Of a DNA stretch of 20,357 nt, positions 1 through 16,812 are shown one piece after another. Location: positions 1 through 20,357 of IMG/VR virus record IMGVR_UViG_3300046005_000823; one strand, given 5' to 3'. The position numbers and the translations under genes are program-made. Each line of letters starts with the position of its first letter. Positions within the stretch are counted from its first letter, which is position 1. This DNA comes from a virus. The notes under the pieces were generated by a model. The model did no database searches. It saw only the letters and a program-made list of their open reading frames with translations, and had not been told where the DNA came from.

Positions 1-567
1 TGTGTTGACAGGAATAAAATCTCTTAGATAATTTTCCGAGCCTTCAAATAATTTTATTACACCTGTTTCCAATGCTTGATTTTCAAACTTATGATAGGGA
101 CTTGCTTGATCACCTTTGTGTTCTTCATGAGGTCCGTGAACATTAAAATATCGAAACCCTTGAACTTTGATGTTTTGAAATCTACCCTGAGATAAAAATG
201 ATTCTATATATCTGTCAAATAGATACTTACTCCATGCATATGGACTTAATGGACTTTTTGGAGCATCTTCTGCAAAGTTTGTTCCAAGTCCATAGACAGA
301 TGCAGAACTTGAGTATTGTAAATTTACTCCGTATTGTTCACACCGATTAATAACTACTCTGCTAAAATCATAATTTTGTTCAAGGACTTGCTCGACATCT
401 GTTGCAGTAGTAGAAGAAATTGCACCGAGATGTATACACCAATCGTATCCTTCAAAATCAGGAAGAGGTTCTCCCCATTCAAACAAACCTAACTCGTGGT
501 CTGTTCGAAGGGCATTGACTACATTTTGTCCAATAAATCCCTTGTATCCTGTCACAAGGATTTTCAT
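1..567 (-). CDS. NAD-dependent sugar epimerase, HldD-like (partial, C-terminus off window)
   Basis: Short-chain dehydrogenase-type nucleotide-sugar epimerase; the closest family I recognise is ADP-L-glycero-D-manno-heptose 6-epimerase (HldD/RfaD), which makes the heptose donor for lipopolysaccharide core. I translated it by hand because it runs off the left edge; 189 residues are visible. It shows an N-terminal Rossmann motif TGYKGFIG (residues 6-13), a serine run (86-88), the catalytic YxxxK as YAWSK (110-114), and HldD-like blocks GFRYFNVHGP (137-146) and LFEGSEN (173-179). The segment between the Rossmann glycines and the ISSTT block is shorter than I recall for bacterial HldD. Its ATG overlaps the cupin stop codon as ATGA, so the two are co-translated. 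Family assignment is strong. The exact substrate is inference; a related nucleotide sugar is possible. Confidence 0.85.
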   Translation of the reverse strand, partial: MKILVTGYKGFIGQNVVNALRTDHELGLFEWGEPLPDFEGYDWCIHLGAISSTTATDVEQVLEQNYDFSRVVINRCEQYGVNLQYSSSASVYGLGTNFAEDAPKSPLSPYAWSKYLFDRYIESFLSQGRFQNIKVQGFRYFNVHGPHEEHKGDQASPYHKFENQALETGVIKLFEGSENYLRDFIPVNT

Positions 568-923
568 CGTTGGCTATCTCCAGGCATTACTCGATAGTTG
601 TCTTCAACGCTGTCTTCGGTGCTGACTTCAATAATAGTGCCTTCTTCTATACAATACAATTGGTGAGGTAATAGTGGTGGATTGTGCCATGTGTCACCTG
701 CATTTAATGGAAGTTCGTTGATCTTTGCCGTTTGTGTATCAATAAATTTTACAATAAATTTTCCAGATAACACATACCATGTTTCATCTTTTTCACTATG
801 AAAGTGCATACTAAATTTTGCATCAGTGGCAAACTGCATTAGTTTGCCGCAATACTTTTCGTTAGTTGCCCATATAAGTTCATGCCCCCAACCCTTTTCT
901 ACAAATCCCGATAATTGTGTCAT
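564..923 (-). CDS. Single-domain cupin, sugar-isomerase-like
   Basis: A 119-residue beta-barrel cupin. The N-terminal KGWGHELIWA (residues 10-19) resembles the KPWGxE signature of mannose-6-phosphate isomerase-type cupins. Cupin motif 1 is visible as MHFH...E...G (His40, His42, Glu47, Gly54), and motif 2 as GDTWHNPP followed by His87. These His/Glu residues would bind a divalent metal. The stop overlaps the start of the epimerase gene (ATGA), and the gene upstream ends exactly where this one starts. Pairing with a heptose-epimerase-like enzyme suggests a role in making or isomerising a surface sugar, but the substrate cannot be read from the sequence. The cupin fold call is firm; the enzymatic role is inference. 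Confidence 0.8.
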   Translation of the reverse strand: MTQLSGFVEKGWGHELIWATNEKYCGKLMQFATDAKFSMHFHSEKDETWYVLSGKFIVKFIDTQTAKINELPLNAGDTWHNPPLLPHQLYCIEEGTIIEVSTEDSVEDNYRVMPGDSQR

Positions 924-1310
924 TTATAATTCTCCACTTTCTGCTAATTTTAACATTAAACTATACTGTTCATATGCTTTCTTTACTGCTGGATATTTGT
1001 CCCGCAATGCTCTCTCACGTTCTTTCTGCTCCATTAGTGTTTCAAACATATGATAATGTCCTTGCTTTTTCATATTGTTAAAAACTTGTGCTTCAAAATC
1101 TGCAATACGTTCTAATTCACTTTGTGCAATCTCTACAGTGTATAACGGTTCTGTATCATTTACAACATCCACAAGCGAGACTTTATTAAAATCCATAGGA
1201 TCTCTAAAATACGCCATATTGATTCTCTGATACCGATGTGCTCGTTTATTTGTATCAAGCACGTTAATACTGTGATGTTGGCAAAATTGTTTTATATTTT
1301 CTGTAGGCAT
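924..1310 (-). CDS. Conserved hypothetical phage protein, helical C-terminal half
   Basis: I do not recognise a function for this 128-residue protein. The N-terminal half is His/Arg rich and contains a segment ending YFRDPMDF (residues 34-41). From about residue 60 to the end it looks almost entirely alpha-helical and charged, with many Glu/Lys/Arg, including EKERERALRDKYPAVKKAYEQY-like heptad spacing. I recall similar C-terminal blocks (LRxKYPAVKKAYEQY) in uncultured marine T4-like phage proteins of unknown role. The ATG shares one base with the upstream stop (TAATG) and the stop directly abuts the cupin gene, so it belongs to the same polycistron. Confidence 0.75.
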   Translation of the reverse strand: MPTENIKQFCQHHSINVLDTNKRAHRYQRINMAYFRDPMDFNKVSLVDVVNDTEPLYTVEIAQSELERIADFEAQVFNNMKKQGHYHMFETLMEQKERERALRDKYPAVKKAYEQYSLMLKLAESGEL

Positions 1311-1507
1311 TATTCAACTAACATTAACATAGCCATTGTGGCTTTCTTGTCGTCTTCTAAACATAGTAAAGTTTCAGAACTACGGGTTCGCATAATACGC
1401 CAACCTTCTCCGCCAATTTTATCATGAATATAATAGAGACGAGGCCCGACGTGCTTCATGCACCAGGCCTCAGCTTTACCGATACTTGTAACTTTAAACT
1501 CGATCAT
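1310..1507 (-). CDS. Small WC/TMFxLRW-family protein, divergent member 1 of the tandem array
   Basis: A 65-residue protein at the promoter-distal end of the tandem paralog array. It carries the family AEAWC....G block (Trp15, Cys16, Gly21), a central GGEGW, and the C-terminal DDKKATMAMLMLVE, which lines up with NEKDMTMFILRWS of its neighbours but has lost the aromatic/LRW ending. No catalytic residues, signal peptide or membrane segment are visible. The ATG lies 14 bases inside the upstream gene, directly after its KYG codons, which matches the position where other members start relative to the LRWS codons. The stop forms TAATG with the next gene. Function unknown; membership is by eye from the pattern. 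Confidence 0.75.
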   Translation of the reverse strand: MIEFKVTSIGKAEAWCMKHVGPRLYYIHDKIGGEGWRIMRTRSSETLLCLEDDKKATMAMLMLVE

Positions 1508-1844
1508 GTCCGTATTTTAATTGCAACATAGTATATATCTTTTCGTGTATGTCGAGAGTATTTTTATACACCATCCAATCTTTGTCAATATGATCGTGCC
1601 ACATTTCTGAAGGTTGACTTTTAATCCAAGATGATATCTTTCCACTACATTTTACAGTATACCATTGAGCATGGTCAACCTTAGATTGATCAATTACACT
1701 GTAATATTCGCTAATGTCAAAGGTCTGATTCCACATCTGTGCCATTGTGCTTTTACCAATTTGACGACCACTCATTATAATTTTCATTTCTTTAGGATCA
1801 TTTCCTGTTATTGTTGCCCATAACTCTTTTTGAAATCCATACAT
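1494..1844 (-). CDS. Small protein with terminase-type P-loop and array-like C-terminus
   Basis: A 116-residue protein. Residues 21-33 read as a beta strand plus P-loop, KIIMSGRQIGKST, of the deviant RQxGK[ST] type seen in large terminases (this phage's gp17 has PRQTGKTT). No Walker B acid pair follows, so an active ATPase is doubtful. The C-terminal half has ISSWIKSQ (70-77), a second Trp, then HEKIYTMLQLKYG (100-112), which can be aligned with EWC...W...NEKDMTMFILRWS of the neighbouring array. It may therefore be a fused, diverged array member. I prefer the ATG at 1844 over the in-frame GTG at 1853. The ATG overlaps the upstream stop as TAATG and has an AAGGTGG Shine-Dalgarno 5 nt away. Function unknown. 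Confidence 0.72.
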   Translation of the reverse strand: MYGFQKELWATITGNDPKEMKIIMSGRQIGKSTMAQMWNQTFDISEYYSVIDQSKVDHAQWYTVKCSGKISSWIKSQPSEMWHDHIDKDWMVYKNTLDIHEKIYTMLQLKYGHDRV

Positions 1845-2083
1845 TATGCCCACCTTAATAAAAATAATGTTAAATTTTTAGGGTCTTTAAACATAAATGT
1901 GGTGTTTCCAAACATACTTTCAATAGCCCATATGTTTGGCTCCATGCCTTCCCAGGTGTCGATGCGGCCGCCTATCCACTTACCTTCGCCCACATAAGTG
2001 CGACACCATTCTTCCATTTCTAAATGTTGATGATATCGATCTTTTCCAAATGTAATCCAACTTACTGTATCGTTCATGACCAT
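1844..2083 (-). CDS. Small WC/TMFxLRW-family protein, member 2 of the tandem array
   Basis: A 79-residue paralog with EEWCRTYVGEGKW (Trp26, Cys27) and a C-terminal FMFKDPKNLTLFLLRWA, the family ending. It is rich in Trp (several besides W26), predicted soluble, and lacks known catalytic motifs. Two starts are possible: ATG 2083, within the Arg-Trp codons of the upstream gene, or ATG 2077, which forms an ATGA overlap with the upstream stop. No Shine-Dalgarno is evident for either, so translation is probably by coupling or re-initiation. The AGG/TGG codons at its end create the ribosome-binding site of the next gene. Function unknown. Confidence 0.78.
   Translation of the reverse strand: MVMNDTVSWITFGKDRYHQHLEMEEWCRTYVGEGKWIGGRIDTWEGMEPNIWAIESMFGNTTFMFKDPKNLTLFLLRWA
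1850..1856 (-). promoter_or_regulatory. Shine-Dalgarno AAGGTGG inside upstream coding sequence
   Basis: The site sits 5 nt before the ATG at 1844. It is formed by the Leu-Arg-Trp codons (TTA AGG TGG) at the end of the upstream array gene, and it decides the ATG over the in-frame GTG at 1853. Confidence 0.65.
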
Positions 2084-2301
2084 CGAAGTATAAACATTGT
2101 CATATCTTTTTCGTTAGCAAAACAAAATCTATATTTTTTAGGAGCATCTCTACCTGCCCAAAACATACACCATTGTCCGTTCCTGTAACCTATTGCTTCC
2201 CAGCGTTTGCCAAACTGTTGTTTACACCATTGACCTGCTGGTCTATGTTTATCGGAATCAACTAAGACCTCGTAGTCTAAATGTAAATTTATTACGACCA
2301 T
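2074..2301 (-). CDS. Small WC/TMFxLRW-family protein, member 3 of the tandem array
   Basis: A 75-residue paralog with GQWCKQQFGKRW (Trp25, Cys26), a QWCMFW segment, and the exact family ending NEKDMTMFILRWS, identical to that of the next gene upstream. The only plausible start is the ATG at 2301. It lies within the CGA-TGG (Arg-Trp) codons of the upstream gene, 10 bases overlapping, with no Shine-Dalgarno, so termination-reinitiation is likely. Its last 38 coding bases are part of a perfect direct repeat with the upstream member, implying a recent duplication or gene conversion. Function unknown. Confidence 0.8.
   Translation of the reverse strand: MVVINLHLDYEVLVDSDKHRPAGQWCKQQFGKRWEAIGYRNGQWCMFWAGRDAPKKYRFCFANEKDMTMFILRWS
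2078..2115. repeat. 38-bp perfect direct repeat, copy 1
   Basis: Identical to 2296-2333. It covers the codons for the NEKDMTMFILRW end of one array gene plus the overlapped start of the next. It begins GACCATCGAAG and ends TTTTCGTT on the plus strand. A diverged third version is visible at about 2565-2602. Confidence 0.95.
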
Positions 2302-2561
2302 CGAAGTATAAACATTGTCATATCTTTTTCGTTTTTAAAAAAGAATTTTTTTTGATTTTCATACCACCGTGACCCACTTTTTCCGTAATGGTCGACGCAC
2401 CATTCAATTGCAAGGTCAGTAGTGTTCTCGTATTTGTTCTTTTCAGTAACAGGCAAACTAACCCAATGGTATTCTCCAATCCAACCTTTGGCTTTACCAG
2501 TCTTCATCGGAGTGAGTTCTGGTTCCATCTGAACACCGTTAAAGATATTGGTATTAAACAT
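2292..2561 (-). CDS. Small WC/TMFxLRW-family protein, member 4 of the tandem array
   Basis: An 89-residue paralog, the longest of the canonical members. About 50 N-terminal residues (including GWIGEYHW) have no counterpart in the others. Then come AIEWCVDHYGKSGSRW (Trp54, Cys55) and the ending FFFKNEKDMTMFILRWS. I chose ATG 2561 over the in-frame GTG 2570 because the ATG forms TAATG with the upstream stop and has AAGGTGG 5 nt before it. The last codons share a perfect 38-bp repeat with the next gene. No catalytic motif or membrane segment is seen. Function unknown. Confidence 0.8.
   Translation of the reverse strand: MFNTNIFNGVQMEPELTPMKTGKAKGWIGEYHWVSLPVTEKNKYENTTDLAIEWCVDHYGKSGSRWYENQKKFFFKNEKDMTMFILRWS
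2296..2333. repeat. 38-bp perfect direct repeat, copy 2
   Basis: Second copy of the repeat at 2078-2115. The two copies sit 218 bases apart, one at the 3' end of each of two neighbouring paralogs, and diverge right after base 2333. Confidence 0.95.
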
Positions 2562-2824
2562 TACGACCACCTTAATATAAACATTGTAGCATCTTTAGAG
2601 TTTTCAAACAACCAGGTTTTATTTCGACTCTTTACTTGTCCGTGACACTGACTTTGAACCCACTCTTTTATTTCGTGTGCCATTGACTCAGACATTCTTG
2701 GTCCAAAGTTAACTGTAACTCGTTCCCATCCAACTTCTGTTAATAAGTTAGCCATAACTCCCCAATCGATCTCTTCAGCAATTTCTTTCGCTGCTCGATT
2801 AAGCATTTCTTCTTCCAGTGTCAT
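2561..2824 (-). CDS. Small WC/TMFxLRW-family protein, member 5 of the tandem array
   Basis: An 87-residue paralog. It begins with an acidic helix (TLEEEMLNRAAKEIAEEID), then a Trp-rich middle, then EIKEWVQSQCHG (Trp55; the usual Cys replaced by Val, with a Cys at 60), and ends TWLFENSKDATMFILRWS. Its ATG overlaps the upstream stop as ATGA. The 3' end uses TTA AGG TGG for Leu-Arg-Trp, giving the next gene its ribosome-binding site. Function unknown; paralogy is supported by the shared ending and by position. Confidence 0.8.
   Translation of the reverse strand: MTLEEEMLNRAAKEIAEEIDWGVMANLLTEVGWERVTVNFGPRMSESMAHEIKEWVQSQCHGQVKSRNKTWLFENSKDATMFILRWS
2567..2573 (-). promoter_or_regulatory. Shine-Dalgarno AAGGTGG inside upstream coding sequence
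   Basis: Formed by the Leu-Arg-Trp codons of the upstream array gene, 5 nt before ATG 2561. It has the same sequence and spacing as the site at 1850-1856, and it decides ATG 2561 over GTG 2570. Confidence 0.65.
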
Positions 2825-3033
2825 GAATATTTTAATGCAAATAAGGTTGCATGTTTATCTTGATAAAACATAAAATTTGTATGTTTAGGAAGTTCACCGA
2901 CCATCTCATCCCACTTGCTTTGATTATATGCAAAGTCAAAATCTGTGCCTTGCAATAAACCTTCTTCTCGAAGTTTTCTAACAATGTCCATAATTTCTAT
3001 AGGATCTTTATTGTAGATAGTAATTTTAGTCAT
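2821..3033 (-). CDS. Small LRW-family protein, divergent member 6 of the tandem array
   Basis: A 70-residue protein, first of the array in transcription order. The ending NFMFYQDKHATLFALKYS matches the family ending position by position (aromatic-rich strand, D/E-K-x-x-T-hydrophobic-F-x-L-basic-aromatic-Ser), but the Trp-Cys block is missing; a lone KWDEMVGEL occupies that place. The N-terminus is a beta strand followed by a helix (DPIEIMDIVRKLREEGL). The ATG lies 8 bases inside the upstream gene, and the stop overlaps the next start as ATGA. Function unknown. Confidence 0.78.
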   Translation of the reverse strand: MTKITIYNKDPIEIMDIVRKLREEGLLQGTDFDFAYNQSKWDEMVGELPKHTNFMFYQDKHATLFALKYS

Positions 3034-3292
3034 CTAATAAAATTTCATCTACAATATCAGTGTCACCTGGGAATGTTGTTATATGATACTCCCTGTTACC
3101 TATCATATAACAACTAGTCCAACTGTGTTGATTGTTAGATGTCGAATATGGTTCAATCATTGCTAACAATAGTAAAGCATGTTCTCTTTCCTTGCCTTCA
3201 AGTGTTCGCCTAGGCGGACCCATAACATTACAAAGGAACTTTTTAAGTTCAACAGGATCTTTTACTAACTTATCTACAAAATTCTTAGTCAT
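3026..3292 (-). CDS. Conserved hypothetical phage protein
   Basis: An 88-residue protein. I use ATG 3292 rather than an in-frame ATG at 3313. The former overlaps the upstream stop as ATGA and has AGGA five bases before it. The N-terminal half is helical and basic, and the middle contains EREHALLLLAMIEP. The second half has NNQHSWTSCYMIGNREYHITTFP, which looks like beta strands. I recall similar NNQHSW / REYHxTxFP proteins in marine T4-like phages without a known function. No catalytic site is recognisable. Confidence 0.75.
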   Translation of the reverse strand: MTKNFVDKLVKDPVELKKFLCNVMGPPRRTLEGKEREHALLLLAMIEPYSTSNNQHSWTSCYMIGNREYHITTFPGDTDIVDEILLDD

Positions 3293-3984
3293 TCGATTCC
3301 TGTTTCTCGACAAATTTCTTGAATCATTATGGTATCTGCAGGATAGTCCTTGAATTTCTTAAGCCAAAATTTAACATCAAATACTGGAACAATCATGGCC
3401 AATTGTTCATCATTCATTTTGCTTATCATGGTCTTTCCTGAATTACAATTTAACACTAACCATGGACTAATCCTTCCGCCTAACATATCATGCACTGCTC
3501 GATTTAAACTAACATAGTTAAAGTAATGTGCAAAATTTGCATTATTCTCATCGCCCCAAGACATCATAGATTGTAATGTTCTTTGAACTGCGGCTTCTAC
3601 TGGTTCTACTTTGAGCATGTCATAAAGATACTGCTCGTATAATTCATCTCTGCACCAATGGTCCAGTTTTACTCCGGACTTAATAACATAATCAACAAAC
3701 TTGTCGGGGTATATGGGATTTACATTGTTAACAAAACTGCCAAATTTTACAAATGCATTGTAATATGCGCTGTTGCAAAATTCATCATATGTTTTAAGTT
3801 TTTTATTTTTCTGAGTAAGTTGATAAAATCTATTGTAAGTCATGTAACCAGCTTGAACACGCTTTTCATCTTTTTGTAAAGCACGTCTCTTTCTTTCACA
3901 CATGTGAGCAACTAGAGTTTTTTCTTTCATAAAACTCTTGCTACAATGTTCACAGAGAAAAGGTTGTTCTTGCAAGTTGATCAT
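3289..3984 (-). CDS. Zinc-finger (CCHC) conserved phage protein
   Basis: A 231-residue protein with an N-terminal single zinc finger, C-x2-C-x12-H-x-C at Cys11, Cys14, His27 and Cys29, followed at once by a basic stretch (ERKRRALQK). The fold resembles a C2H2 finger with Cys as fourth ligand. The rest is helical and aromatic-rich; recognisable blocks are YNAFVKFGSFV, KLDHWCRDELYEQYLYD and GRISPWLVLNCNSGK. I recall this architecture in marine T4-like phages, with no assigned role. A nucleic-acid-binding or transcription-related job is plausible from the finger but is inference. The ATG overlaps the upstream stop (ATGA). Confidence 0.8.
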   Translation of the reverse strand: MINLQEQPFLCEHCSKSFMKEKTLVAHMCERKRRALQKDEKRVQAGYMTYNRFYQLTQKNKKLKTYDEFCNSAYYNAFVKFGSFVNNVNPIYPDKFVDYVIKSGVKLDHWCRDELYEQYLYDMLKVEPVEAAVQRTLQSMMSWGDENNANFAHYFNYVSLNRAVHDMLGGRISPWLVLNCNSGKTMISKMNDEQLAMIVPVFDVKFWLKKFKDYPADTIMIQEICRETGIE

Positions 3985-4445
3985 TCGTATTCTTTTCTTT
4001 GTTTTTTATCAAATCCCATTTTGTCAAACAACTCATTAATGTCATCTTTATTCATCATCGACGCTAGTGTTTTAATATCTTCTAACTTCCTTGCGGGATA
4101 AATTTCTGCTAAAAGTTTTTCAATCTTATTAGCCTTACCTTTCTTGCCTGCGGCAAGATAAGGATGATACATACTCTGGCCAACACCAGTTGCTGCAAAT
4201 AGTTTCCACAACAACGGTTTGTGATTTTTACTTAATATCCAATGATTTTTATTAACATACTCGTTGGTAGTTTCTAGAAACCATGCTTGTAAATCCTGAT
4301 CGCCCTGGACATTACTTGTGTAACGCATGAGAATAAAAGGACTGAATGCTTTCTTTTCTTCATCAGTAAGACCATCATAGAATTCGTATTCTCTAGTGTC
4401 AACTGCTCGCAGTTCTCTTTTTATATCAAGTTTTGCTGTTGCCAT
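3981..4445 (-). CDS. Conserved T4-like phage protein, possible clamp-loader small subunit (gp62-like)
   Basis: A 154-residue, mostly helical protein. Blocks such as DIKRELRAVDTREYEFYDGL, SPFILMRYTSNVQG, TNEYVNKNHWIL and ANKIEKLLAEIYPARKL resemble what I recall as clamp-loader small subunit gp62 in marine T4-like phages. T4 gp62 is 187 residues and pairs with the gp44 ATPase to load the gp45 clamp. No gp44 or gp45 gene is in this window, so context does not confirm it. The start at 4445 overlaps the upstream gene by 20 bases. The stop overlaps the zinc-finger gene's start (ATGA). Treat the gp62 name as tentative. Confidence 0.6.
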   Translation of the reverse strand: MATAKLDIKRELRAVDTREYEFYDGLTDEEKKAFSPFILMRYTSNVQGDQDLQAWFLETTNEYVNKNHWILSKNHKPLLWKLFAATGVGQSMYHPYLAAGKKGKANKIEKLLAEIYPARKLEDIKTLASMMNKDDINELFDKMGFDKKQRKEYE

Positions 4446-4668
4446 CTTTTATTAACCTATACATCATTATAAGGTGATCTACGGACTTTTGCAAGGCAGG
4501 ATTGTCCTTAGCTGTGTGTCTAATATCAAGCCATTCTTGTGTAAGTAGTGTTTCCTTCATTTCGGCTGTTTTCGCCGGGCTTACATAATGTAGTTTCTTA
4601 TTTTTACTACCCATCTCTCTTACATAAACTGTTTGGCCGCCATCGGGGCTTTCATAAATTTGAGGCAT
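4426..4668 (-). CDS. Small conserved phage protein (IYESPDGG type)
   Basis: An 80-residue protein beginning MPQIYESPDGGQTVYVREMGS, an N-terminal strand-rich motif that I associate with small hypothetical proteins of marine T4-like phages. The C-terminal half is helical: EWLDIRHTAKDNPALQKSVD, then a hydrophobic LIMMYRLI segment too short to be a convincing membrane helix. Function unknown. It starts six bases beyond the end of the upstream gene with no strong Shine-Dalgarno, and its last 20 bases overlap the next gene. Confidence 0.75.
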   Translation of the reverse strand: MPQIYESPDGGQTVYVREMGSKNKKLHYVSPAKTAEMKETLLTQEWLDIRHTAKDNPALQKSVDHLIMMYRLIKDGNSKT

Positions 4669-12978: not shown

Positions 12979-12986
12979 TATTTATT
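12979..12986 (-). promoter_or_regulatory. Late-promoter-like AATAAATA, 6 nt before ATG
   Basis: AATAAATA on the minus strand overlaps the gp17 stop codon and ends six bases before the ATG at 12972. It resembles the T4 late consensus TATAAATA. No Shine-Dalgarno lies between it and the ATG. Confidence 0.5.
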
Positions 12987-14565
12987 AATAATTGCTGATG
13001 TAGATGGGCATGGGCATGACAAATTCGTCCTCACGCTCTTCCCGCATTTTGTCATAAATCGCCGGATCCCACTCTTGTAGCATCATTGCCATGCGTATTG
13101 CCAGCAACATACTACTAACTAAATCGTCATGTTGTCCTACTTTTGCTTCAAAACTAACACCTTTAGCAATATATGTTTTAAGTTCGCTAATTAAGGGCTT
13201 AGAATTAACACCTAATCGGTTGCTTTCTAACAAATGCTTTAATTTGGCGCAGGCATTGATCTTGCTAGAGTTAGTGGTGTTAAATCCCTTACGGAATCTA
13301 CGAACATGTCCTTTTTTAATAGGTTCGCTTAGGAATAGTCCCGGAATACTTTCTTCACCAATTTCTTCAATTGCAACTAATGCAGCTTCACCAATACTAT
13401 TATTTTCAACGCTATAATAAAGGCTAGACTGGACTCCTTTTGCAGAGCACTCATCATTAATGTAATTGCACAGGTCTCTTAAAATACGCACCTGTCCTTG
13501 AATAGTAGTTAAATTATGTTGCCACTCTGCTACTTGCTCAAAACTAGGAATTTCTAAAATCTGTATTGCAGCAGGATCGCCACCGGTGCCTAAGCTAGGA
13601 TCTAATGCAATAAGATAAGTGTGCATTGGATTAATTTTTTTATACCATCGTGCTTGCCCCATCTTCATTATGGGTTCTTTGCCTTCTATAGTTGCCAGCT
13701 TAATACTGTTAATAAGTGTTTCGTCAAATACTAAAAATTCACAATCGTGTTCACGACGGAATCGTTCTTCTCCAATTCGACTGCGTTCTTCATTTGCCCA
13801 GTTCTCGTCGCGATCCGGATGTTCATTCCAGTATGCTCTAAACGGAAAGAAACCATTCCGTCCTAGAACTTGTTCGTTTCCAAATTCGTCAAATTTAAAG
13901 TTTGCTTCTTTCCAAATTCGTGCAAATTGATCTTCGTCACTGTTAGGAGTAGATGTAATAATTGCTTTACCACCCGTTGCCAGTGTGGGCGAAATAGAAG
14001 TCCAGAATTCTGTGGCAATGTTAGGTTCAACGAATGCAAACTCGTCAGCGTATAGTAATGACAGTGACAAACCTCGACCAGTTGTTTCAGTTGTTGTCTG
14101 TGCAATAATACGTGAACCGTTGTCAAACTCTATACTTTGTTTGTTGTAACTCTTTACACCACAGCGTATGTGATCCGGGCAAAGTTCGTATGCATAACGA
14201 ATACGTGACATAATTTCCTGAGCACCTGTAAACTTGTGTGCAGCCACTAGAATAGTTGCGTCAGGAATAAACATAGCATACCATAATAGATATCCTGCCG
14301 CAGTAGTTGTTTTACCTGTTTGTCGAGGTAATAAGTTTACGTTGAAGCGATTTCCGTGATAACTATCGATTAATCTTTTTTGATAATCAAACGGCTCATA
14401 CTGTAACTTACCTTTTGTTGGATGTTGAATGTAGAAAAAATGATCAAGAAAATAATGCGGTCCATTAATAGGATCTGTGCAGTGCATTAGATCTTCAATA
14501 TCTTTCTCAGTATACTTCTGCTGACTGTATGCAGTTTTTACTAGTTTATTATCAGTATATGCCAT
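12985..14565 (-). CDS. 17: Terminase large subunit gp17 (packaging ATPase and nuclease)
   Basis: A 526-residue DNA-packaging motor protein (T4 gp17: 610). The N-terminal ATPase domain has the terminase-type Walker A LPRQTGKTT (residues 79-87), Walker B LLYADEF with Asp174-Glu175, and motif III TSTPN (204-208). The C-terminal RNase H-like nuclease has LIALDPSLGTGGD (Asp322), VENNS (Glu387) and GQHDD (Asp480/Asp481), the usual three acidic positions. The protein is shorter than T4's, mainly at the ends. It starts just beyond a strong terminator, with GTAAATA five bases before the ATG and no Shine-Dalgarno. gp16 is encoded upstream, separated by two unknown genes rather than adjacent as in T4. 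Confidence 0.97.
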   Translation of the reverse strand: MAYTDNKLVKTAYSQQKYTEKDIEDLMHCTDPINGPHYFLDHFFYIQHPTKGKLQYEPFDYQKRLIDSYHGNRFNVNLLPRQTGKTTTAAGYLLWYAMFIPDATILVAAHKFTGAQEIMSRIRYAYELCPDHIRCGVKSYNKQSIEFDNGSRIIAQTTTETTGRGLSLSLLYADEFAFVEPNIATEFWTSISPTLATGGKAIITSTPNSDEDQFARIWKEANFKFDEFGNEQVLGRNGFFPFRAYWNEHPDRDENWANEERSRIGEERFRREHDCEFLVFDETLINSIKLATIEGKEPIMKMGQARWYKKINPMHTYLIALDPSLGTGGDPAAIQILEIPSFEQVAEWQHNLTTIQGQVRILRDLCNYINDECSAKGVQSSLYYSVENNSIGEAALVAIEEIGEESIPGLFLSEPIKKGHVRRFRKGFNTTNSSKINACAKLKHLLESNRLGVNSKPLISELKTYIAKGVSFEAKVGQHDDLVSSMLLAIRMAMMLQEWDPAIYDKMREEREDEFVMPMPIYISNY

Positions 14566-16368: not shown

Positions 16369-16812
16369 TTATCGCTTTTTACTAGGATTATGAAAAATAT
16401 CAGTTTCATTCATAATTCTAAAATATATTCCCTGCTGTTTACACCACTGAGCCGCAGCGGCCCACTTTGCCATATTTTTTACATACTGTGCCTGGTCGTA
16501 GGGATTTTTTCCAACTTTTTCTCTAAGTGTTTGTTTTGCAGGTTTAATTTCCCAAAGTTCGGCGTGTTTTTTTTGATTCTTATCTACGTATACCACAAGA
16601 AAATCTGGAACATATACAGTGTGCTTACCTGTCAGCGGGTCACGGTATGGAATTTTTACAGGCTCACTTGACCATTGTTGGATTGCTGGGTTATTGTCAC
16701 AAAAATTCATAACTGTAAACTCCCAGGAACTTCTGTATGTTGGAGCCCTATTTCCAACATATTTTTCAGCATTTTTAATTTTATAAATGCCCTGACTAAA
16801 TTTTAAACTCAT
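16369..16812 (-). CDS. 4: Head-completion nuclease-like protein gp4 (gp50)
   Basis: A 147-residue protein closely matching T4 gp4 (also called gp50; 150 residues). Shared blocks are EKYVGNRAPTYRSSWEF (residues 16-32), WSSEPVKIPYRDPLTGKHTVY (47-67), PDFLVVYVD and HAELWEIKPAKQTL. The PD70...E88-I-K90 arrangement is the PD-(D/E)XK nuclease core seen in TnsA-like proteins. T4 gp4 acts late in head assembly, before tail joining. The ATG overlaps the upstream stop (ATGA). Identification rests on remembered sequence similarity across most of the length. Confidence 0.93.
   Translation of the reverse strand: MSLKFSQGIYKIKNAEKYVGNRAPTYRSSWEFTVMNFCDNNPAIQQWSSEPVKIPYRDPLTGKHTVYVPDFLVVYVDKNQKKHAELWEIKPAKQTLREKVGKNPYDQAQYVKNMAKWAAAAQWCKQQGIYFRIMNETDIFHNPSKKR

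Follow-up and report, generated by a model that had tools for sequence, protein, structure and literature searches.

Seven small genes lie in tandem on the minus strand of IMG/VR virus record IMGVR_UViG_3300046005_000823, which was analysed over its whole 20,357 nucleotides (20.4 kb; hereafter the window) and carries T4-type genes on that strand. Pfam confirms a UvsX-like RecA, gp32, a terminase and a UvsW-like helicase, and the array is located downstream of the UvsW-like helicase gene, between g3289 and g924 (Table 1). Its neighbouring open reading frames (ORFs) overlap by 1–14 nt. A previous sequence-only reading had proposed six or seven overlapping paralogs at this place; all seven are present on the minus strand and share a common C-terminal module.

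Table 1 Array genes, slot borders and 3′-end features in the window; E values are from a profile trained without the window
Feature	Position	Strand	Description
g2821	2821..3033	-	70 aa, group OG1; first array gene; ends DKHATLFALKYS; E=1.9e-12
g2561	2561..2824	-	87 aa, OG2; EWVQSQCHG ... SKDATMFILRWS; E=1.8e-14
g2292	2292..2561	-	89 aa, OG0 (commonest group); EWCVDHYG ... EKDMTMFILRWS; E=2.9e-17
g2074	2074..2301	-	75 aa, OG3; modelled strand-helix-strand-strand-helix; E=5e-15
g1844	1844..2083	-	79 aa, OG9; EWCRTYVG ... PKNLTLFLLRWA; E=2.2e-11
g1494	1494..1844	-	116 aa, OG16; Walker-A-like GRQIGKST N-terminal stretch, then array module; ends DIHEKIYTMLQLKYG; E=2.2e-8
g1310	1310..1507	-	65 aa, OG7; final array gene, next to g924; AWCMKHVG, degenerate end KKATMAMLMLVE; E=1.4e-7
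AAGGTGG	2567..2573	-	within LRW codons of g2561; predicted Shine-Dalgarno of g2292 (TAATG junction); from sequence and family-wide codon test
AAGGTGG	1850..1856	-	within LRW codons of g1844; predicted Shine-Dalgarno of g1494 (TAATG junction); from sequence and family-wide codon test
g2292 3′ end block	2296..2333	-	38 nt identical to end of g2074
g2074 3′ end block	2078..2115	-	identical to 2296..2333
g3289	3289..3984	-	phrog_11058, function unknown; conserved slot border, upstream side
g3026	3026..3292	-	small non-family gene within slot; found in only some relatives
g924	924..1310	-	conserved slot border, downstream side

The array genes were confirmed as one real family sharing a C-terminal module. 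A profile trained solely on other contigs recovered all seven genes and no other among 101 window ORFs, the best non-array ORF reaching E=0.27. The best of 1400 shuffled copies scored 10.8 bits, compared with 24–55 bits for the seven members, and when each similarity group was left out in turn, 31/31 groups were recovered by the profile of the remaining groups (weakest E=0.004, Z=1000). Profile–profile comparison with hhalign confirmed a domain-length relationship for g2561 (probability 98.1%, 43 columns), g2292 and g2074 (98.4% between their groups), g1844 (98.9%) and g1310 (95.5%, 59 columns). For g2821 (93.3%) the alignment is restricted to the last 23 columns; of the shared end and upstream EWC block described in the sequence-only reading, this protein has the end without the block. 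The suggestion that g1494 may be a seventh paralog held, with weaker support than for the others: its held-out match (Table 1) is accompanied by a probability of 76.9% against group profile A5 and of 2.6% against A2. Both g1494 and g1310 are degenerate members, g1494 being the weakest of the seven. Relatives of g1494 end FDIHEKLYTMLALKWS, matching the array motif, and orthologs of g1310 end ..ATLFILRWL or ..AMLYMLRWS although the window copy looks degenerate.

The N-terminus of g1494 gives a weak match to phrog_2, the terminase large subunit (E=0.0035 over residues 1–39). This assignment was rejected: the 116-residue protein has a P-loop-like stretch only, sharing with the large subunit just the Walker-A-like GRQIGKST, while the nuclease domain and a complete ATPase are missing, and the true terminase of the window is encoded at 12985–14565. 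A member in locus L052 combines GRGTGKS with a canonical LRW end.

The family, carried by large aquatic phages, has 855 members on phage contigs; 706 of them are distinct and fall into 228 similarity groups. They were gathered via the neighbour g924, via g2292 and g2074, and via one degenerate DNA pattern, whose loci are biased to LRW[SA] ends, so that the counts are not a census. Median member length is 78 aa, with nearly always just 0–2 residues after the final W. Up to 23 members occur at a single locus (within 8.5 kb) and up to 32 copies in a whole record (a 364 kb contig). Cultured jumbo phages were reached by profile search only: Sinorhizobium phage Phosso (PV764938) has 33 matches at E<=0.01 and 24 at 0.001, with E down to 2e-10; Pseudomonas phage PA5oct has 4 and 2 at the same thresholds; Agrobacterium phage Atu_ph07, searched at 0.001 only, has 1. 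The same kind of search found no member in Salicola SCTP-2, Vibrio 2.275, XacN1, XaC1 or an Erwinia phage, and tblastn of annotated phages with g1844, g2292 and two consensus-like members gave nothing meaningful. A strict DNA pattern had no match in bacterial genomes, a single narrow query with which bacterial copies are still possible. The earlier reading knew of no named family for these proteins, and none emerged from Pfam or PHROGs: 74 diverse members matched no PHROG or Pfam family at E<=0.01, and the seven window genes had no Pfam family at curated cut-off and only weak PHROG matches, the best being that of g1494 given above. A description of the family was not found in a literature search whose coverage omits most subscription papers. 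Judged against the searched libraries, three things are new: the family, a slot found both empty and filled, and a protein signature that in part doubles as the next gene's ribosome-binding site. Beside some arrays (L101 5588–5875, L200, L192, L177) lie small proteins of a family that may be related, characterised by KWCRRN.G....WDF and a MYEMW-type end; the array profile catches some of them at the margin.

Each protein was shown to end in a module of ~50 residues while the rest varies freely, in support of the earlier picture of small duplicates that keep the C-terminal half and vary toward the N-terminus. Structure models cover two members. The AlphaFold2 model of g2074, built with 25 relatives, has high confidence (predicted local distance difference test, pLDDT, 90.7; predicted template-modelling score 0.78) and displays five elements, strand-helix-strand-strand-helix. 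For g1494 mean pLDDT is 71.5, with confident modelling starting only at about residue 48; residues 48–110 (pLDDT about 90) show the same element order as g2074 after one extra strand, with the P-loop part unresolved. The two models support a predicted fold shared between members. Conserved positions of g2074 include W25, C26, G31, W44, W48, Y57, F61, E64, D66, F70, L72, R73 and W74, a set made up almost entirely of aromatic and hydrophobic residues together with glycines and an E.D cap, and tryptophan makes up 5.5% of family residues versus 1.3% in long ORFs. Net charge ranges from −12 to +11 (mean −0.7) with no common charge seen, and no conserved polar catalytic set suggesting an enzyme was found among the members. 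Sequence and fold searches of the PDB gave no significant relative, Foldseek returning nothing below E=1. VIA structure comparison placed KH, PII-like and EF-G domain III alpha-beta folds, whose strand and helix order is broadly similar to that of the module, at Z 4.5–6.1; the best value, 6.1 for KH domains, is tied with unrelated folds and of a size common by chance, and these folds show neither a significant Foldseek match nor sequence similarity to the array proteins.

The conserved ending overlaps with a predicted translation signal. Phages commonly join genes through ATGA overlaps in which a Shine-Dalgarno site is embedded. In this family the typical tail, TTG-AGG-TGG-TCA-TGA, encodes LRW[S/A] and at the same time holds a Shine-Dalgarno sequence and the overlapping start of the next gene; its GAGGTGG is predicted to be a strong site, with five bases from GAGG to the ATG of the ATGA overlap. 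In members where LRW is followed by no more than one residue, AGG makes up 74% of the Arg codons (background 7%). Taking one member per group, AGG accounts for 107/149 (72%; p=2e-86), TTG for 67% of the Leu codons (background 20%) and TCA for 77% of the Ser codons (background 17%). Codon bias relative to background then amounts to 0.60, 0.97, 1.76 and 1.15 bits over the final informative codons, versus 0.07–0.25 over thirteen upstream positions. The Shine-Dalgarno duplex energy is −7.0 kcal/mol in the family and −3.7 kcal/mol at non-family ATGA junctions, with AGGTGG present in 59% and 2%, respectively. AGG is used in 80% of members with an immediate follower gene and in 53% of those without (p=2e-7), a contrast carried by the pattern-derived loci. 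Phosso provides a natural control, its ends keeping a D/HAMLFKL-aromatic motif mostly without the Shine-Dalgarno signal. Since the upstream motif has background codon use and the Phosso motif mostly lacks the signal, protein and RNA constraints appear to overlap: the last four or five residues are probably shaped by the RNA signal, and the upstream F.F..ekDat.F.L is probably kept as protein. The caveat of the sequence-only reading, that overlapping frames alone might explain the shared ending, thus applies to the last four or five codons of many members; a pure overlapping-frame explanation is insufficient for the upstream motif.

The slot between g3289 and g924 changes its content across relatives. 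Dozens of them have an empty slot (a gap of 0–21 nt) and several have one to three genes in it; the window has seven, locus L086 has 11, and L095 has 15 members over 6.1 kb. Close relatives, with g924 74–88% identical, differ in slot content (2–7 members), and gene order within the slot is partly kept, g2821-like genes standing first and g1310-like genes last. Most contigs with an empty slot are free of members along the rest of the fragment; one of them carries an array of eight members away from the slot. Arrays also sit at other genomic places in other phages. Comparison of ortholog pairs showed ratios of nonsynonymous to synonymous substitution rates (dN/dS) indicative of purifying selection on the array genes: 0.10–0.32 in groups with at least five pairs, ribosome-binding-site codons excluded, with one exception at 0.03 where dS is saturated. 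An accessory character is well supported by the fixed slot, by variation in presence and copy number and by purifying selection, while no known anti-defence gene was identified beside the array.

Neighbouring members have probably exchanged sequence on occasion. The matching 3′ blocks of g2292 and g2074 (Table 1) are identical even at silent sites, while both genes diverge elsewhere, and probably arose through a recent conversion or recombination event involving the two neighbours. Within a locus, near-identical 3′ ends occur at 6.5 times the between-locus frequency (p=0.001, from few cases), a sign that neighbouring members may recombine from time to time. Frequent gene conversion across arrays was rejected, synonymous identity being 0.586 within a locus versus 0.560 between loci; conversion appears occasional, not constant.

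We favour, with some reserve, an overall explanation in which the array is an accessory set of small phage proteins on one scaffold, resized at a fixed slot and serving as putative host-directed binders. Its genetic architecture is held with high confidence; the binder function is tentative. Each gene would carry the translation signal for its follower, and because of this a gene with its 3′ end would behave as a plug-in cassette; cassettes could be added or removed while chain translation persists, and recombination between similar 3′ ends would reshuffle the array. The products may be non-enzymatic binders of host or defence proteins, acting in host takeover or counter-defence, the roles that the sequence-only reading raised by analogy, with the scaffold fixed and the surface diversified. 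More speculatively, the array may be a self-perpetuating cassette system without a recombinase, in which the conserved 3′ end serves at once as last helix, as ribosome-binding site and start of the next gene, and as short homology block, allowing phages to stack, swap and delete putative host-directed binders at a slot with the entire chain still translated. Neighbours in relatives include thymidylate synthase, NAD synthetase, RNA ligase and nucleotide enzymes, which fit an accessory region without proving it.

Several observations weigh against this explanation. Direct evidence of recombination amounts to a handful of pairs. AGG still reaches 53% where an immediate follower is missing, and in neighbour-derived loci it is as high without a follower (10/11) as with one (25/33), so inheritance or missed followers also contribute. 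AAGGTGG occurs in just 2/7 window genes, at the ends of g2561 and g1844; the ribosome-binding-site feature is therefore statistical for the family and not universal. No known anti-defence gene or inhibitor was recognised, the annotated neighbours in relatives being metabolic and nucleic-acid enzymes, and a PADLOC scan of 74 members, covering defence proteins and not inhibitors, gave one match at E=0.005.

Among other explanations, the proteins might be unrelated except for an LRWS tail that is merely the Shine-Dalgarno sequence of the next overlapping gene. The strong bias to TTG AGG TGG TCA TGA and the short alignment of g2821 point that way, yet this explanation is largely refuted and we regard it as highly improbable: upstream motif positions have background codon use, homology spans 43–59 columns in g2561, g2292/g2074, g1844 and g1310, the module is predicted to fold at high confidence, Phosso retains its D/HAMLFKL-aromatic ends mostly without the signal, and orthologs are under purifying selection with ribosome-binding-site codons excluded. 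A role as minor components of the virion or head interior that enter the cell with the phage would agree with the T4-type structural genes also present in the window and with a size easily missed by mass spectrometry. We consider it improbable. The three PA5oct relatives that were looked up lack the electrospray-ionisation tandem mass spectrometry (ESI-MS/MS) mark that the record uses for detected virion proteins, and the slot in which members come and go adjoins UvsW-type replication genes and lies outside the structural block.

The helix-strand layout recalls KH or RRM-like alpha-beta folds, which raises the question of small nucleic-acid-binding proteins or regulators of transcription or translation. 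A weak structural resemblance to KH domains (best Z 6.1) and to further ferredoxin-like domains speaks for such a role. Against it, Z values of this order are common by chance, no PDB entry came below E=1 in Foldseek, the widely varying net charge averages close to neutral, and neither a conserved basic patch nor a GXXG-like loop is evident; we regard the role as unlikely. Counter-defence, the most appealing special case of the favoured explanation, would have each member inhibit one host defence protein and arrays track the local defence repertoire. Turnover of content in a fixed slot, one scaffold with a varied surface and small size all speak for it, but the scans, whose PADLOC component covers defence proteins and not inhibitors, turned up no known inhibitor or defence-linked family, and the partly kept slot order suggests some core roles; we consider it rather doubtful in this specific form.

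Jumbo phages are already known to harbour large expansions of small domains. Bacillus phage G carries a lineage-specific expansion of small zinc-ribbon proteins with about 35 copies (PMC7824862). In both cases dozens of copies of one small domain, role unknown, are found in a jumbo phage; the fold differs, and the array family is spread over many phages. The passage on the phage G zinc ribbons (PMC7824862) mentions neither a fixed slot nor an embedded ribosome-binding site. The hypothetical proteins of Phosso, PA5oct and Atu_ph07 that match the array profile differ from the array members in that LRW is not fixed and the Shine-Dalgarno sequence is mostly absent, and the Phosso members are both scattered and clustered. 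The same predicted fold is found in BFVD proteins of uncultured Caudovirales phages (A0A6J5L980, A0A6J7WGT2 and A0A6J5LHB1; template-modelling score up to 0.94 by target length, Foldseek probability 1.00), which are deposited predictions without name, family or function.

At the slot borders, relatives of g3289 occur in jumbo phages, for example PA5oct, Phosso and SCTP-2. Beyond g924 on its downstream side (window 1–923) lie a cupin protein (564–923) and an apparent sugar-nucleotide epimerase, which suggest surface-sugar modification genes. In a phage contig, a TilS-like PP-loop ATPase (ACSGGVDSM; L004 4933–5568) is encoded directly past homologs of g2074 and g924. A second recurrent C-terminal motif, [YN]P[AS][VL]..A.E.Y..LL.L (for example KYPAVKKAYEQYSLMLKLAES), closes several otherwise differing small proteins in the window (924–1310, 4426–4668) and in relatives (L004 88–546, 4201–4614 and 5513–5935). 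Amid the structural genes, window 16369–16812 encodes a protein with a TnsA-like endonuclease domain (Pfam PF08722, E=1e-24), possibly a head-completion nuclease.

The array cautions that a conserved protein ending can partly be a conserved RNA signal. Large phages hold hundreds of tiny unnamed genes, and the family gives one group of them a common scaffold and a searchable profile. The slot offers comparable empty and full states together with a candidate rule for keeping changing arrays translated. If its members are inhibitors, the slot would be a ready-made site at which to seek counter-defence genes.

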